From Verrucomicrobiota bacterium (GTDB lineage Bacteria > Verrucomicrobiota > Verrucomicrobiia > Limisphaerales > UBA9464), in the NCBI GenBank assembly GCA_017309115.1, contig JAFLEF010000007.1, positions 143,843 to 207,842 on the forward strand: DNA of 64,000 nucleotides, written 5' to 3'. Position numbers and translations under genes: made by a program. The notes under the pieces are model-generated. The model was not told the origin of the DNA, ran no database searches, and worked only from the letters and a program-made list of their open reading frames with translations. Positions 31,979 to 39,074 of the stretch are shown here, piece by piece. The first letter of the stretch is position 1; the number at the start of each line of letters is the position of its first letter.

Positions 31979-32051
31979 TCCCAGAAGTGGAACCGGGCCA
32001 ACTGGGAAGACGGCTTTAGCCACTTCCCTACCTTCTGGGCTGATCGAAAGC

Positions 32052-32345
32052 TTACACTTTCGGCGTCAGTTGGATCACCGCTTCCCGCATTTCCTTGCCC
32101 GGCTTGAACTTAACCACCGCTCGAGGGGGAATAGGGACGTCCCGCTCGGGTTGATTTGGATTACGGCCAATCCGCGCCTTGCGGACTTTGACCTCAAAGA
32201 CCCCGAAGTTTCGCAACTCCACGGTCCTGCCTTGGGATACTGCCTCGGAGATGTAGTCCAATGTCTTTTGGACTACCTCTTGAACTTTTTCTTGAATGAG
32301 CCCGGTTTCGGCCGAAATCCGGACTACGAGATCGCGCTTTGTCAT
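32052..32345 (-). CDS. HU/IHF family DNA-binding protein
   Basis: A 97-residue histone-like protein that bends DNA as a dimer. MTKRDLVVRISAETGLIQEKVQEVVQKTLDYISEAVSQG forms the helical base, then VELRNFGVFEVKVRKARIGRNPNQPERDVPIPPRAVVKFKPGKEM matches the HU/IHF signature including the Pro-bearing beta arm. I chose the ATG at 32345; an in-frame GTG at 32384 adds 13 unconserved residues. It lies downstream of the NIL-domain gene by 121 bases and may have its own promoter. Confidence 0.93.
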   Translation of the reverse strand: MTKRDLVVRISAETGLIQEKVQEVVQKTLDYISEAVSQGRTVELRNFGVFEVKVRKARIGRNPNQPERDVPIPPRAVVKFKPGKEMREAVIQLTPKV

Positions 32346-32466
32346 AGGGAGCTGATTTGGATTGGATGCTTGGTTGCCAAGCACTTGATTGGCAAATAAG
32401 ACCGCTTCCCAATCTGGTCAAGCAGCGAGTCACAGCCCGAGCCTGCGGTTCGCCCCAAAATTACCG

Positions 32467-32751
32467 TCAGGATTCGACCGTACTCAGCTCCACGGGCTCA
32501 ACATTGACCCCCAACGTGCGGAGCCATTTGATCCCGGCTTCCACCTCAATTGGGCTTCCTTCCAATTCCAGACAAACGATCCCAATCTCGTCGTTGACAC
32601 TGGCTTGGCGCACATTGGTGACCAACTCGAACTTATGTCCCAACTCCCAGATAATCGGCTGCTGAATCAGCCGAGGCGGGAACATTAACCACAACCGCGA
32701 AGACTGAGGTCGGGCGAACCGGTTGGTCGAATTGGAGTCACGGGCCGCCAC
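32467..32751 (-). CDS. NIL-domain protein
   Basis: A 94-residue protein containing one NIL domain (LWLMFPPRLIQQPIIWELGHKFELVTNVRQASV, then GIVCLELEGSPIEVEAGIKWLRTLGVNVEPVE). NIL domains occur at the C terminus of MetN methionine transporters and in small proteins linked to methionine and homocysteine synthesis, where they are thought to sense or bind methionine or related thiols. It is the fourth gene after the SAM riboswitch, 16 bases downstream of a MoaD-like gene, so a role in sulfur amino acid synthesis is likely. Confidence 0.85.
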   Translation of the reverse strand: MAARDSNSTNRFARPQSSRLWLMFPPRLIQQPIIWELGHKFELVTNVRQASVNDEIGIVCLELEGSPIEVEAGIKWLRTLGVNVEPVELSTVES

Positions 32752-32767
32752 AAAGTTCCTCCTGCGC

Positions 32768-33043
32768 TCAACCTCCTGCGATTGCCGGAATGATGCTCAC
32801 TTCATCCCCATCCCGGATCGGAGTGTCATTGTTCTGGAGGAATCGAATGTCCTCCTCGTTGACGTAGATGTTCACAAAGCGCCGCACCTGACCGGCGTCA
32901 TCGACCAAACGCTCCCGAATTCCCGGGAACTTGGTTTGTAGTTCAGTAATGGCCCCGCCGATGGTGCCGGGCCCCACCTCGACCAATTCCTGTTCGAGGG
33001 TGAGTTTCCGAAGCGGCGTGGGAATGCGTACTTTGACGGACAT
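32768..33043 (-). CDS. MoaD/ThiS-like sulfur carrier, second copy
   Basis: A 91-residue beta-grasp protein ending in Ala-Gly-Gly, the tail that is adenylated and thiocarboxylated in MoaD, ThiS, CysO and related sulfur carriers. Landmarks are VRIPTPLRKLTLEQELVEV, TKFPGIRERLVDDAGQVRRFVNIYVNEEDIRFL and DGDEVSIIPAIAGG. From the ATG at 33043 the length is typical; the frame upstream is not conserved. It is a diverged paralogue of the gene just before it. No molybdenum cofactor or thiamine genes are near, and the SAM riboswitch points to methionine metabolism. Confidence 0.9.
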   Translation of the reverse strand: MSVKVRIPTPLRKLTLEQELVEVGPGTIGGAITELQTKFPGIRERLVDDAGQVRRFVNIYVNEEDIRFLQNNDTPIRDGDEVSIIPAIAGG

Positions 33044-33098
33044 GACAGTAAGACGAAGACAATCAACGAGGACGTGCCCCTGAGGCAAGCCGTCAGGT

Positions 33099-33371
33099 TT
33101 AGCCGCCCGCGAATGCCGGAATGATCGTGACTTCATCACCCGGTCGCAAAGCGGTATTTTGTTCCTCCAGGAAGCGGATGTCCTGATCGTTCACAAATAC
33201 CAGGACCGAACCGCGAATGCGGCCATCCTCGGCGCAAAGGCGTTCCCGCACCCCATGGTATCGACCCTGCATCTGGGAAATGGCATCCGCCACGGTACCC
33301 GCCCGCACTTGGACAGTTTCCTCGCCTCCACAAAATCGGCGCAAGGTCGGCGGAATGGAGATTCGAATCAC
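33099..33371 (-). CDS. MoaD/ThiS-like sulfur carrier, first copy
   Basis: A 90-residue beta-grasp protein 12 bases after thrC, ending PAFAGG with a free Gly-Gly, so no proteolytic maturation would be needed. It aligns with the next gene throughout: IPPTLRRFCGGEETVQV, GRYHGVRERLCAEDGRIRGSVLVFVNDQDIRFLEEQ and LRPGDEVTIIPAFAGG. Sulfur carriers of this type deliver sulfide equivalents as a C-terminal thiocarboxylate; CysO of Mycobacterium tuberculosis does so to a PLP enzyme. The neighbouring PLP enzyme here is ThrC. The activating E1-like enzyme is not in the window. Confidence 0.9.
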   Translation of the reverse strand: MIRISIPPTLRRFCGGEETVQVRAGTVADAISQMQGRYHGVRERLCAEDGRIRGSVLVFVNDQDIRFLEEQNTALRPGDEVTIIPAFAGG

Positions 33372-33383
33372 AAGCGCTCCCGA

Positions 33384-34625
33384 TTAGGCATTTACCAACT
33401 CCGGTTGATCTGCGACTCGCAACGCTTCGAATTCGCGCAGACTGGGTCGGATTTCCCGAGTTTGCCCGACGTGTCCGGCGACGGCGTCCAAAGTCTTGAG
33501 ACCATTGCCAGTGATGCACAGGACCGCACTCGAGTCGGCGGGAATCTTGCCCTGGGCAATCAGCTTCTTGGCCACCCCCACCGTGACGCCCCCGGCCGTC
33601 TCCGCAAAAATGCCCTCACACTCCGCCAGCATCCGGATGCCCTCACGAATCTCATCGTCGGTCACATCATCCCCGGATCCACCAGTCTCCTTCATCACTC
33701 TCAGCGCATAGAATCCATCCGCCGGCGTCCCGATGGCCAGGGACTTGGCAATGGTGTTGGGCTTTTGCGGCTTGAAGAAGTCGAGTCCGGCCTTTTGTGC
33801 CTGGGTGATTGGATTACAGCCGGTCGCCTGAGCTCCGTGAATCTTCCACTTCGTCTCCGGCACCAACCCCAGCTTCGTGAACTCCTGATAGCTCTTGTGA
33901 ATCTTGGTCAGCAGCGAACCCGACGCCATGCACACCACGGTGTGCTCCGGCACCCGCCAGCCCAGTTGTTCCTGGATCTCAAAGCCCATGCTCTTCGAAC
34001 CCTCGGCGTAGTACGGGCGCATATTGACGTTCACGAAGGCCCAGCCGTACTTGCCGGCGATCTCGGCACACAAGCGGTTTACTTCGTCATAGTGCCCCCG
34101 GATTCCGATGACATTGGCGCCGTAGACCAGCGAATTGACCACTTTGCCCTGCTCCAGGTCGTGCGGAATGAACACGTAGCAATCAAGCCCGGCCGCCGCA
34201 GCATTGGCCGCCACCGAGTTCGCCAGATTACCCGTAGACGCGCACGCCACTGTCTTGAAGCCCAACTCCACGGATCGGCTCAGCGCGACGCTGACCACCC
34301 GGTCCTTGAAGGACAACGTGGGGTAATTGACTGCGTCGTTCTTGACGTAGAGCTCGCGAATCCCCAGGCGCTTGGCCAATCGATCGGCCTTCACCAAGGG
34401 CGTGAACCCCACCTGCCGCCCGACCGAGGGTTCGCCGGCCACCGGAAGTAGCTCGCGATAGCGCCACATGGTCTGCGGTCGGGATTGGATGGCCGCGCGG
34501 GTCAACTCCGCCTTAATGCGGTCGTAGTCGTACGCGACTTCCAACGGTCCAAAATCAAACTCGCACACATGGGTGGCACCCAGCGCGTATTCGTGTCCGC
34601 ATTCGCGGCACTTCAGCGCCTTCAT
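33384..34625 (-). CDS. thrC: Threonine-synthase-family PLP enzyme under SAM riboswitch control
   Basis: A fold-type II PLP enzyme of the threonine synthase family, 413 residues from the ATG at 34625. An N-terminal zinc-knuckle remnant (CRECG ... HVCEFDFGPLEV; the fourth Cys is Asp) is followed by the PLP-lysine motif YPTLSFKDRVVSVAL near 105, the phosphate-binding ACASTGNLANSVAANAA near 127, and SGSLLTKIHKSYQEF near 237. Standard ThrC turns O-phosphohomoserine into threonine. The SAM-I riboswitch upstream and two sulfur-carrier genes downstream suggest it may instead make homocysteine from O-phosphohomoserine and a protein thiocarboxylate; that is inference. Alternative starts: ATG 34646 or GTG 34679. 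A CAGGGATTC stretch before 34625 supports my choice. Confidence 0.88.
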   Translation of the reverse strand: MKALKCRECGHEYALGATHVCEFDFGPLEVAYDYDRIKAELTRAAIQSRPQTMWRYRELLPVAGEPSVGRQVGFTPLVKADRLAKRLGIRELYVKNDAVNYPTLSFKDRVVSVALSRSVELGFKTVACASTGNLANSVAANAAAAGLDCYVFIPHDLEQGKVVNSLVYGANVIGIRGHYDEVNRLCAEIAGKYGWAFVNVNMRPYYAEGSKSMGFEIQEQLGWRVPEHTVVCMASGSLLTKIHKSYQEFTKLGLVPETKWKIHGAQATGCNPITQAQKAGLDFFKPQKPNTIAKSLAIGTPADGFYALRVMKETGGSGDDVTDDEIREGIRMLAECEGIFAETAGGVTVGVAKKLIAQGKIPADSSAVLCITGNGLKTLDAVAGHVGQTREIRPSLREFEALRVADQPELVNA

Positions 34626-34711
34626 GAATCCCTGGCTATGGCTCATAACGTCGTCGATCAGTGGACACTTGGCGTCCACAGCCCAGCCGAGTTGCTGCGA
34701 AATGGGGAAAC

Positions 34712-34745
34712 AAAAAACCCCTTCCCGCCGGACGAGAAGGGGTTC
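34712..34745 (-). terminator. Rho-independent terminator of the SAM riboswitch
   Basis: On the minus strand a 9-bp stem AACCCCTTC / GAAGGGGTT (plus 34736-34744 and 34716-34724) with an 11-base loop is followed by a run of T. It lies between the SAM-I aptamer and thrC, about 90 bases before the start codon. The 5' arm of the stem overlaps a segment (34731-34739) that can pair with the 3' strand of aptamer helix P1 (34763-34771, 9 pairs), giving an antiterminator when SAM is absent. Confidence 0.88.
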
Positions 34746-34765
34746 GGAAAGCCGGACCGGCGCTT

Positions 34766-34888
34766 CTCATCTTCGCCGAGATCTCGTTTCCGAAATCTCA
34801 GCCGGATTTGGCACCTGGTCGTCGAACTGCCGGTTCAACCGGTTGCCGTGGCGTCTGCGGGCCGTTTCCCTCAGCCACTCTGGATGAG
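34766..34888 (-). promoter_or_regulatory. SAM-I (S box) riboswitch aptamer
   Basis: The minus strand carries the SAM-I core: P1 CTCATC (34888-34883) pairs with GATGAG (34771-34766); between them lie GAGTGGCTGAGGGA (kink-turn region), GGCCC, GGCAACCGG near 34845, and GGTGCCAAATCC near 34810, in consensus order and spacing, followed by a short P4-like hairpin GAGATTTCGGAAACGAGATCTC. SAM binding would stabilise P1 and free the downstream terminator, shutting off thrC and the sulfur-carrier genes when SAM is plentiful. The motif was recognised by eye; a covariance-model search would settle it. Confidence 0.93.
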
Positions 34889-35050
34889 CTGCCTTGGTCT
34901 CCCAAGACGACGAAACCAATGCCGGAAGAACGGGTGCGGTGTCAAAATATTTTTCCCCCGACTCGTCCCAGCCTACCCAGAACACAGAACCCGGAAATTT
35001 TCTTCGCGCAACGTCGCCCTCCCGTGTTCCATCTCGTCACTTTTCGTAGC

Positions 35051-36637
35051 ATGCCGAAACGTACTGACATCCATTCCGTCCTCATCATTGGCGCCGGCCC
35101 CATCATCATCGGCCAAGCCTGTGAGTTTGACTATTCCGGAACCCAAGCCTGCAAGGCTCTCCGCGAGGAAGGGTATCGCGTCATCCTGGTGAACTCGAAT
35201 CCAGCCACCATCATGACCGATCCGGAGTTCGCCGACCGAACCTACATCGAGCCCATTACGCCCGAGGCCGTCGAGAAGATCATCGTTCGCGAGTTGGAAA
35301 CCATGCGGATCCTGGGCGTGCCCACTCAATCCGCCGATCCCGCCGTCGCCCACAAACTGGTGCTGCTGCCCACCCTCGGCGGGCAGACTGCCCTCAACAC
35401 CGCCATGAAACTCCACAAGAGCGGCGTGCTCGAACGGCATGGAGTGGAAATGATCGGGGCCAAGGCCGACGCCATCGAAAAGGGCGAGGATCGCCAAATT
35501 TTCAAAGACCTGATGCTGAGCATTGGCCTCGACGTTCCCATTAGCGGAACCGCTCACGACATGGCCGAAGCCCGCGCCGTCGCCGAGAAGATCGGAAAGT
35601 TCCCGGTGATTATTCGGCCGGCCTTCACCCTTGGGGGAACCGGTGGCGGCATCGCCTACAATCGCGACGAGTTCGAAGAAATCGCCAAACGAGGCATGGA
35701 CTTGTCGCCCGTCTCGGAAATTCTCGTCGAAGAATCGCTACTCGGCTGGAAGGAATACGAGATGGAGGTCATGCGCGACCGGGCCGACAACTGCGTCATC
35801 ATCTGCTCCATCGAAAATTTTGATCCGATGGGCGTGCATACCGGTGACTCCATTACGGTCGCCCCCATCCAGACGCTCACCGATAAGGAGTACCAGATCA
35901 TGCGCGATCAAAGCTTCGCCGTGATCCGGGCCGTCGGTGTCGAAACCGGCGGGTCGAACATCCAGTTCGGCGTCAATCCGGACACCGGGCGCATGGTCAT
36001 CATCGAGATGAATCCCCGGGTTAGCCGGAGTTCCGCACTGGCCTCCAAGGCCACCGGATTCCCGATTGCGAAGATCGCAGCCAAACTGGCCGTCGGCTAT
36101 CTGCTCGATGAGATTCGCAATGACATCACCCGGGAAACTCCCGCCAGTTTCGAGCCCACGATCGATTACGTCGTCACCAAGATTCCCCGGTTTGCGTTCG
36201 AGAAGTTTCCCCAGGCAGACCCGACCTTGACCACCCAAATGAAGAGCGTCGGTGAAGCCATGGCCATCGGACGGACCTTTAAGGAAAGCCTCCAGAAATG
36301 TCTGCGCTCCCTGGAGATTGGTCGCAGCGGGCTCGGCGGAGACGGCAAGCCGTGGCGCATCACGGGAAGCCTGCCACGGTTTGAACGCGCTGAAGGTCAG
36401 GCGGAAGAACCCCTCGTGGTCGAACTCTATGGCGACCGGGACATCCTTCCCCGCGAAATCATCACGCGAAAACTTAGCGTGCCCAATGCGGAACGAATTT
36501 TCTTTATCCGTCACGCCCTGCGCGCCGGATTCAGCATCGACGAGATCTTTCAGCTCAGCAAAATCGACCGGTGGTTCCTTACCCAGATCAAGGAGATCGT
36601 CGATTTCGAGGAACTGCTGGCCAACTCGCAGAATTGA
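35051..36637 (+). CDS. carB: Carbamoyl phosphate synthase large chain, N-terminal half only
   Basis: The 528 residues cover the carboxyphosphate ATP-grasp domain and the oligomerisation domain of CarB and then stop. Landmarks: [32 protein letters not shown] at the start, [13 protein letters not shown] near 108, [21 protein letters not shown] near 185, [24 protein letters not shown] near 315, and the [25 protein letters not shown] region near 490. Full CarB is about 1070 residues with a second ATP-grasp half and an allosteric domain; the next gene is unrelated. It is either a split carB or a truncated copy. The frame is open upstream to 34661 but that part runs through the riboswitch region; ATG 35051 gives the canonical N terminus. 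Confidence 0.92.
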
Positions 36638-37958: not shown

Positions 37959-39074
37959 ATGAAACCTAGCCCAAAATTTAGTTTGTCCCTGGTGCTCGTC
38001 CTGGGAGTTGTCACCGCCTCGTTTTTCTGGGTTCGCAGCGCCAACCCGGACCGCGAACCATCCCTCTCGCCATCCGCCATGAGCAATTTCGAAAAGCCCC
38101 ACGAATCCGAACTCAAACGCAAGCTCACCCCGGAACAGTTCGCCGTTACCCAGCAGTGCGGGACCGAACCGCCGTTTCGCAACGCCTATTGGGATAACAA
38201 GAAGCCCGGTCTGTACGTGGACGTCGTCTCGGGCGAACCCCTGTTCAGTTCGCTGGACAAGTTCGACTCCGGAACAGGCTGGCCCAGTTTCACTCGCCCG
38301 GTGTCAGGAGCGGAGGTCGTCGAGAAAAAAGATACTGAGTTCGGCATGGTCCGTACCGAGGTCCGTTCGAAAGGCGCCGACTCCCATCTCGGCCACGTCT
38401 TTGACGACGGCCCTGGGCCGACGCGCCAACGATACTGCATCAACTCCGCCTCCCTGCGGTTTGTGCCGGTGGAGAAGATGGCCGAGGAAGGTTACGGCGC
38501 CTATCTGGGACCGTTTGTGAAGGCCGGGCTGATTCCCGTCGCGACCAATGCCAACAGCGCGCCGGCCGCGACCGCAGCCCCTTCCAACCGGGAGACGGCA
38601 CTGCTCGCCGGCGGTTGCTTTTGGGGAATGGAGGAGATCGTCCGCAAAATTCCCGGAGTCCTGGAGACAACCGTCGGTTACACCGGCGGGACCGTGAAGA
38701 ATCCCACCTACGAACTGATTTGCACCGGCCGTACCGGACACGCAGAAGGGCTCAAGGTTGTGTTCGATCCGGCCCAACTGAGTTACGGACAGCTCCTGGG
38801 CTACTTTTTCCGGATGCATGATCCGACGACCCTCAATCGCCAGCACAACGACGTGGGCACTCAGTATCGTTCAGCCATCTTCTATCTGAATGACGAGCAA
38901 AAGGAAGTAGCTGAGCGCGTGAAGGCCCAAGTTGACCAGTCCGGGAAATGGAAGCGATCCATTGTCACCGAGATTACCCGTGCCTCGGAGTTCTACCCTG
39001 CCGAAGACTACCACCAGGACTATCTCATCAAGCATCCGGGCGGGTACAACTGTCACGTCCTGCGCCCCGAGTGA
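37959..39074 (+). CDS. msrBA: Exported MsrB-MsrA fusion, methionine sulfoxide reductase
   Basis: A 371-residue envelope protein that reduces both stereoisomers of methionine sulfoxide. A membrane/signal segment ([17 protein letters not shown]) precedes the MsrB domain (about 45-175) with [21 protein letters not shown] and the catalytic Cys in [11 protein letters not shown]. The usual zinc CxxC of MsrB is replaced ([11 protein letters not shown]), so it is a zinc-free form. An Ala/Pro linker leads to MsrA (about 205-371) with [17 protein letters not shown] and GYTGG. The domain order MsrB-MsrA is the reverse of many pathogen fusions. The electron donor is probably a thioredoxin-like protein; none is adjacent. 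Confidence 0.94.

Follow-up and report, generated by a model that had tools for sequence, protein, structure and literature searches.

In Wolinella succinogenes, methionine synthesis is reportedly thiocarboxylate-dependent and involves HcyS, HcyD and HcyF together with MetY. In Streptomyces albulus, the carrier gene metO is said to lie directly downstream of metM, with the thiocarboxylated carrier serving as the sulfur donor. MetM itself is a ThrC-like homocysteine synthase that takes O-phosphohomoserine as its substrate and works with the sulfur carrier MetO (Hasebe et al. 2024, AEM 90:e01247-24; as related in the portion of PMC12172450 available to us), and the same portion places a SAM riboswitch upstream of metM. 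A further homocysteine pathway, in which the NIL domain takes part, combines DUF39 with NIL/ferredoxin and COG2122 proteins (PMC5764234, available sections).

The locus described here lies within a 64,000-nucleotide stretch (the window) of contig JAFLEF010000007.1 from a Verrucomicrobiota bacterium (assembly GCA_017309115.1), and its features are collected in Table 1. It resembles MetM-MetO in having a ThrC-like enzyme that falls off the ThrC branch, adjacent carriers ending in GG and an upstream SAM riboswitch, an identification that draws on Nonomuraea gerenzanensis as a stand-in and on the published description as far as it was available. Plasmid sequence searches for the Streptomyces MetM returned Nonomuraea as the only close match. 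The same gene order is found in this actinomycete, with a SAM riboswitch (68.7 bits), an enzyme 54% identical to that of the window and a carrier ending in PAVAGG, but it encodes a single carrier, and no NIL match turned up within 5 kb. The Verrucomicrobiota operon, by contrast, includes a NIL protein, and the window and four relatives possess two carriers. From other SAM-I elements of the RF00162 family, with which it shares the full aptamer and the terminator/antiterminator platform, the leader differs in its target, metM. At the core lies an enzyme system that had been named before (MetM); the NIL partner, the second carrier, carrier-NIL fusions and the phyletic reach are variant features. 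Judged from sequence comparison and genome content, a terminating SAM-I riboswitch very probably controls a homocysteine-synthesis operon here, and the gene annotated as thrC would encode a MetM-type synthase that uses O-phosphohomoserine and a carrier thiocarboxylate.

Table 1. Riboswitch elements and genes of the putative metM operon, in window coordinates.
Feature	Position	Strand	Evidence
SAM-I (S-box) riboswitch aptamer, full model length	34764..34890	-	RF00162 68.0 bits, E 9.8e-14, gathering 44.4
Predicted antiterminator	34731..34771	-	34771-34763 (P1 3′ strand) with 34739-34731 (terminator 5′ arm), 9 bp including one G-U
Predicted intrinsic terminator hairpin with T-rich tail	34707..34745	-	stem 34745-34715; -22.4 kcal/mol
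metM-like gene annotated thrC (PF00291 PLP enzyme)	33384..34679, likely true start ATG 34646	-	PF00291 227.4 bits
Sulfur carrier A (ThiS/MoaD family), ends ...PAFAGG	33099..33371	-	PF02597 46.9 bits
Sulfur carrier B (ThiS/MoaD family), ends ...PAIAGG	32768..33043	-	PF02597 63.4 bits
Stand-alone NIL-domain protein, related to MetN regulatory domain	32467..32751	-	PF09383 38.5 bits
HU/IHF-like gene, next co-directional	32052..32384	-	PF00216 95.8 bits

A first-pass annotation had placed a complete SAM-I riboswitch at 34712..34888 in front of the thrC gene. The element was recovered as described, and its Rfam score lies well clear of the gathering threshold, with the RF00162 covariance model covered end to end (positions 1-108, by 34890-34764 on the minus strand); the aptamer start had to be moved to 34890. 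This is the single RF00162 match in the whole genome assembly (7.5 Mb, 95.3% complete). The terminator that had been read at 34712-34745 was found again, independently, as a hairpin of 14 pairs with a 3-nt loop and a T-rich tail, and the proposed pairing of 34763-34771 with 34731-34739 holds as nine consecutive pairs. When the transcript was ended at 34731, the antiterminator was the minimum-energy fold with no constraint applied. Folded to 34712 without constraint, the leader reached -82.9 kcal/mol with the terminator present and the SAM-I fold absent; forcing P1 gave -82.7 and forcing the antiterminator -73.2, so that in these computed folds the terminator form is favoured once it is able to form. 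Antiterminator and terminator are mutually exclusive as computed, and the modelled leader layout is the usual one of 'SAM present = off'. With SAM scarce, the 3′ strand of P1 would pair with the 5′ arm of the terminator, permitting read-through and production of the operon; with SAM bound, P1 would form, the terminator would fold and transcription would stop. Terminators in the region number three, which is not above the shuffle mean of 3.1; the aptamer-linked stem has 14 pairs and the other two local terminators have five each. A scan of 32000-35100 for sigma-70-type promoters found none. A decayed riboswitch was considered and ruled out by the full-length model match, the intact platform and conservation in relatives.

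Among 76 distinct aptamers, changes on both sides were seen in five of the seven modelled pairs of P1 and all five of P4, the two helices assessed, in an alignment fitted to the model, which favours such a result. The model used to find matches (R1) contains two middle helices that are an RNAalifold guess, partly wrong, and do not represent SAM-I P2/P3.

The enzyme passes the NCBIfam threonine synthase model TIGR00260 (278.4 bits against a cut-off of 167.1), falls below the cut-off of PRK08197 (285.7 against 303), and scores far higher with threonine synthase models than with CysM models. Six sequences of solved structures were matched, five of them threonine synthases and one another PLP enzyme, and no solved structure named MetM was found. 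These matches, with that to TIGR00260 well over its cut-off, are what would be expected of an ordinary threonine synthase under SAM control, with threonine synthesis following the methionine state. However, the genome has one other homologue, on contig C86 (35% identical), which is probably its threonine synthase in place of the riboswitch-linked 'thrC'. A maximum-likelihood tree, rooted at the midpoint, was computed from 45 proteins: 26 from the 90 MetM-type loci, the Nonomuraea protein and 18 of the 21 ThrC-like rows, three with internal stops having been dropped. For this tree the program cautioned that long branches come together, among them the MetM branch and some of the ThrC rows. In it, the 26 loci and Nonomuraea form one branch with support of 100/100. 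All 18 ThrC-like rows, the genome's own ThrC included, fall outside it. The motif SFKDRVV, whose lysine presumably holds PLP, is present in 91 of 91 MetM-type rows among the matches listed, and SFKDR[AG] occurs in 14 of the 21 distinct ThrC-like genes (own ThrC counted once), the pattern being unmatched in the remaining seven. By grouping and by motif the enzyme thus appears distinct from ThrC, though TIGR00260 was passed. The direction of control would also be wrong for the sharing of a precursor, as SAM would turn threonine synthesis off when methionine is plentiful. A threonine synthase is therefore very improbable, and was rejected on the second ThrC, the adjoining carriers, the separate branch, the motif and the lack of MetB/MetY in all 10 genomes with a MetM-type enzyme described below.

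The textbook route to homocysteine appears to be missing from the genome. Its four PF01053 matches are weak and partial (best 31.6 bits, one over the Pfam cut-off of 27), and were rejected as MetB/MetY because they are other enzymes: one is a cysteine desulfurase of the NifS type, which scores 566.6 bits against the TIGR03402 cut-off of 530.75, two are aspartate-type aminotransferases and one is a serine hydroxymethyltransferase; no MetX match was found in the genome. It does encode ThrB (233.8 bits), a ThiF-type E1 with a C-terminal rhodanese domain at G000:C109:9835-10545, and it gives three matches to the PF02574 methyltransferase family. A survey of 193 genomes of the phylum found the enzyme at 63-100% identity in 10, with the next best at 38%. 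PF01053 at E <= 1e-20 is present in 179 of the 193, and the 14 without it include all 10 MetM-type genomes. Absence of PF01053 at this threshold thus marks 10/10 MetM-type genomes against 4/183 others (Fisher p 6e-14), or 6/6 against 2/102 by genus (p 1.5e-8), in tests that treat genomes and genera as unrelated. All 10 also possess an E1, nine have ThrB over the cut-off (the exception being G121), and PF02574 was found in eight (not in G036 or G057). Both PF01053 at E <= 1e-20 and a close MetM are lacking in four further genomes (G077, G106, G110 and G170).

Genome content, the sulfur-carrier and NIL neighbours, the tree and the anti-correlation with PF01053 all agree, and they support the first-pass suggestion that the target gene probably belongs to homocysteine or methionine synthesis. 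ThrB would make O-phospho-L-homoserine, and the MetM-type enzyme would divert it from the threonine branch, exchanging its phosphate for sulfur that the ubiquitin-like carriers encoded alongside would bring as a thiocarboxylate at their C-terminus (GG-COSH). The carriers would in turn be charged by the ThiF-type E1 with its rhodanese domain, encoded elsewhere in the genome. The formation of homocysteine from O-phosphohomoserine by the window's own enzyme is our inference from these comparisons. If it holds, the threonine synthase annotation would be corrected, and a wide range of bacteria might form homocysteine in the absence of the textbook enzymes.

The 915,884-base genome G036, a single contig, has the enzyme, a carrier and the E1, and no SAM aptamer was found near its metM. 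The homocysteine step can be filled there; for the last step there is no PF02574 match. The nematode symbiont Xiphinematobacter americani (915,884 bases) is described, in the sections of PMC4607532 that were available, as having mostly kept essential amino acid synthesis, with methionine as the exception, and the available part of PMC7857533 mentions missing methionine genes as well.

A homologue from Microcystis, 51.6% identical to that of S. albulus, shows both threonine synthase and deaminase activity, and it also yielded an unassigned peak close to methionine (PMC12172450, in the portion available). This double activity calls for caution in assigning one activity from sequence, and together with the peak it speaks for a bifunctional enzyme that would form either threonine or homocysteine from O-phosphohomoserine according to whether the carrier is charged. 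Such a reading overlaps with the MetM-type one. A second ThrC-like match of 35-38% identity, however, occurs in all 10 MetM-type genomes (in G121 as two pieces of 35% and 33%), so that threonine synthase activity need not be kept, and bifunctionality seems rather unlikely.

Among the matches listed, a carrier match lies downstream of metM in 90 of 91 loci, the sole miss having 128 nt of contig left. Two carriers are present in the window, L065, L067, L073 and L081, and in L114 the second is partial; in the window, carrier B is the form closer to the carrier of most relatives. The near relatives L066 and L068-L072 have an A-like carrier only and no NIL match; the frame looks broken in L069-L071, and 837 nt of contig are left in L066. 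In nine of the 10 surveyed genomes the metM-linked carriers end exactly at GG, and the seven complete Mariprofundus-type carriers run one or two residues past it. A JAMM-type protease scores over the cut-off among these 10 only in G121, and G121 alone has a metM-linked carrier that continues beyond GG; there (locus L148) the JAMM gene begins some 1 kb ahead of the ThiF match in a protein that fuses carrier, E1 and rhodanese. The window's own genome gives a single JAMM match, which at 23.7 bits stays under the cut-off of 25. Locus L140 encodes, besides its metM, a rhodanese-ThiF protein and a JAMM-type protease. The likeness to Wolinella thus lies in a carrier that would supply the sulfur and, in L140 and G121, in extended carriers accompanied by a JAMM protease. 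The differences are that the PLP enzyme here is a ThrC-like PF00291 protein and not a PF01053 one, and that nine of the 10 genomes have a carrier ending at GG and no JAMM above the cut-off.

A carrier thiocarboxylate could also serve cysteine synthesis, by reaction with activated serine as in CysO-CysM. The carrier, E1 and JAMM protease of L140 resemble the logic of CysO/Mec or that of HcyS/HcyD, and cysteine-synthase-like genes occur in the metM clusters at L138 and, by eye, L136. Against this stand the SAM control, threonine synthase scores far above those of CysM and the gap in the 10 genomes, which is the PF01053 family of methionine enzymes. Cysteine synthesis by the operon was rejected on these grounds and is scarcely credible. 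In L138 and L136 a SAM riboswitch heads a cluster of cysteine-synthase-like genes and metM (in L136 by eye only), and L138 additionally has NIL, carrier and ATP sulfurylase genes. Such clusters hint that cysteine and homocysteine synthesis may be controlled together.

Downstream of metM, a co-directional NIL match is found in 65 of 91 loci among the matches listed; none was found in the other 26, of which 21 have more than 900 nt of contig left. In L122, L131 and L140, carrier and NIL domain share one open frame with the GG in mid-frame, and both domains score above their Pfam cut-offs. L122 also encodes a nitrite/sulfite reductase-like protein that has 4Fe-4S domains and whose gene (L122:6776-7768) separates metM from the carrier-NIL fusion. 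The NIL protein recalls the DUF39 pathway, which differs in that DUF39/HcyBio (PF01837) was found in none of the 10 MetM-type genomes, the window's own included, and no ferredoxin domain was detected by Pfam on the window's NIL protein. Of 66 NIL proteins found, 21 were built into a profile, which hits the MetN regulatory domain (3dhx) at E 4e-9. N46 of the window's protein aligns with N295 of MetN, the asparagine being kept in 65 of the 66. This residue is presumably part of the motif that names the NIL domain, so its conservation alone is no proof of methionine binding. Unlike in E. coli MetN, where it is C-terminal to an ATPase, the NIL domain here stands alone or is fused to a sulfur carrier. 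The N295A variant of MetN 'does not bind L-Met' in the regulatory domain and has a Ki for L-Met increased 28-fold (PMC12357092, as far as available).

The NIL protein most probably serves as a partner that regulates the enzyme or positions its substrate. A more specific role is a tentative possibility: it may be a methionine-sensing allosteric subunit of the homocysteine synthase that gates the hand-over of the thiocarboxylate from carrier to MetM. SAM acting on the RNA and methionine on the protein would then give double end-product control, and the carrier-NIL fusions would be carriers with their own sensor, freed at the GG by JAMM. The novel piece of the system would lie in this NIL part and its possible role in methionine feedback, through which methionine sensing could be linked, in a testable way, to sulfur transfer by ubiquitin-like carriers. 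Titles and abstracts, with partial coverage of the literature, yielded nothing that joins NIL, a sulfur carrier and a ThrC-like enzyme; in the same partial coverage, nothing was found on a SAM riboswitch in verrucomicrobial methionine biosynthesis, or on homocysteine or methionine in Methylacidiphilum.

Within the 193 genomes of the phylum, RF00162 gave 19 matches in 18 genomes under strict filters, by which weak ones may be lost. Seven precede a MetM-type enzyme, eight a metY-type and one a metX-type gene, with metY and metX assigned by eye from the downstream frames; the remaining three were left unassigned on this reading (L019 and L025 in genome G120, L024 in G178). Of the 10 MetM-type genomes, seven have a SAM riboswitch. 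When named genomes were scanned, at least 80 further loci of 63-89% identity were added, the titles among the matches listed covering Verrucomicrobiota groups, Mariprofundus and other Zetaproteobacteria, Nitrospira, Desulfobacterota and related bins, and Kiritimatiellae. A covariance model detected a SAM aptamer upstream of metM in 77 of 90 loci among the matches listed, mainly in Verrucomicrobiota and Mariprofundus. As the covariance model was built from 16 aptamers (A2), seven of which belong to surveyed loci, the count without these training loci is 70 of 83, again among the matches listed. In genomes, the SAM switch helps to tell MetM from true ThrC.

In 74 of these 77 loci (among the matches listed), 15-179 nt separate the aptamer from the estimated start of metM downstream; in L122, L136 and L138 (Desulfuromonadales, Deltaproteobacteria and Nitrospira bins) the aptamer is found 0.9-2.2 kb upstream, with genes between. 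In the window, the start had been taken as GTG 34679; ATG 34646, at which the relatives L094 and L114 begin, is likelier. Of 13 loci in which the aptamer was missed, four have at most 111 nt upstream; in nine with more than 500 nt (L056, L057, L063, L084, L090, L131, L139, L140 and L143), neither our own model nor Rfam found one, L139, L140 and L143 being Desulfobacterota, Syntrophaceae and Thermodesulfobacteriales loci. Among the matches listed, a terminator of -10 kcal/mol or lower lies between aptamer and gene in 47 of the 77, compared with 61 of 616 dinucleotide shuffles of the same aptamer-to-gene segments. With complementarity to the P1 strand of at least 6 bp also demanded, the counts among the matches listed are 42/77 against 13/616, and with at least 7 bp 33/77 against 6/616. 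The terminator/antiterminator platform therefore occurs across the relatives more often than expected by chance. In many of the remaining loci, largely of Chthoniobacter and Methylacidiphilales type, aptamer and gene are only 15-65 nt apart, and the switch may act on translation.

Several neighbouring genes bear mention. Some 7 kb ahead of the window lies a gene for a NifS-type cysteine desulfurase (G000:C79:136317-136781), a possible sulfur source for the E1-rhodanese protein. Divergent from the operon, a carB gene at 35051-36637 (+) matches positions 1-476 of the 1058-position profile of the carbamoyl-phosphate synthase large subunit, and the gene after it is an unrelated putative metallopeptidase; since only the N-terminal half is present and the next gene is unrelated, carB looks split. 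Further along, at 37959-39074 (+), lies a fused peptide methionine sulfoxide reductase B-A (SelR 161.1 bits, PMSR 223.5 bits).
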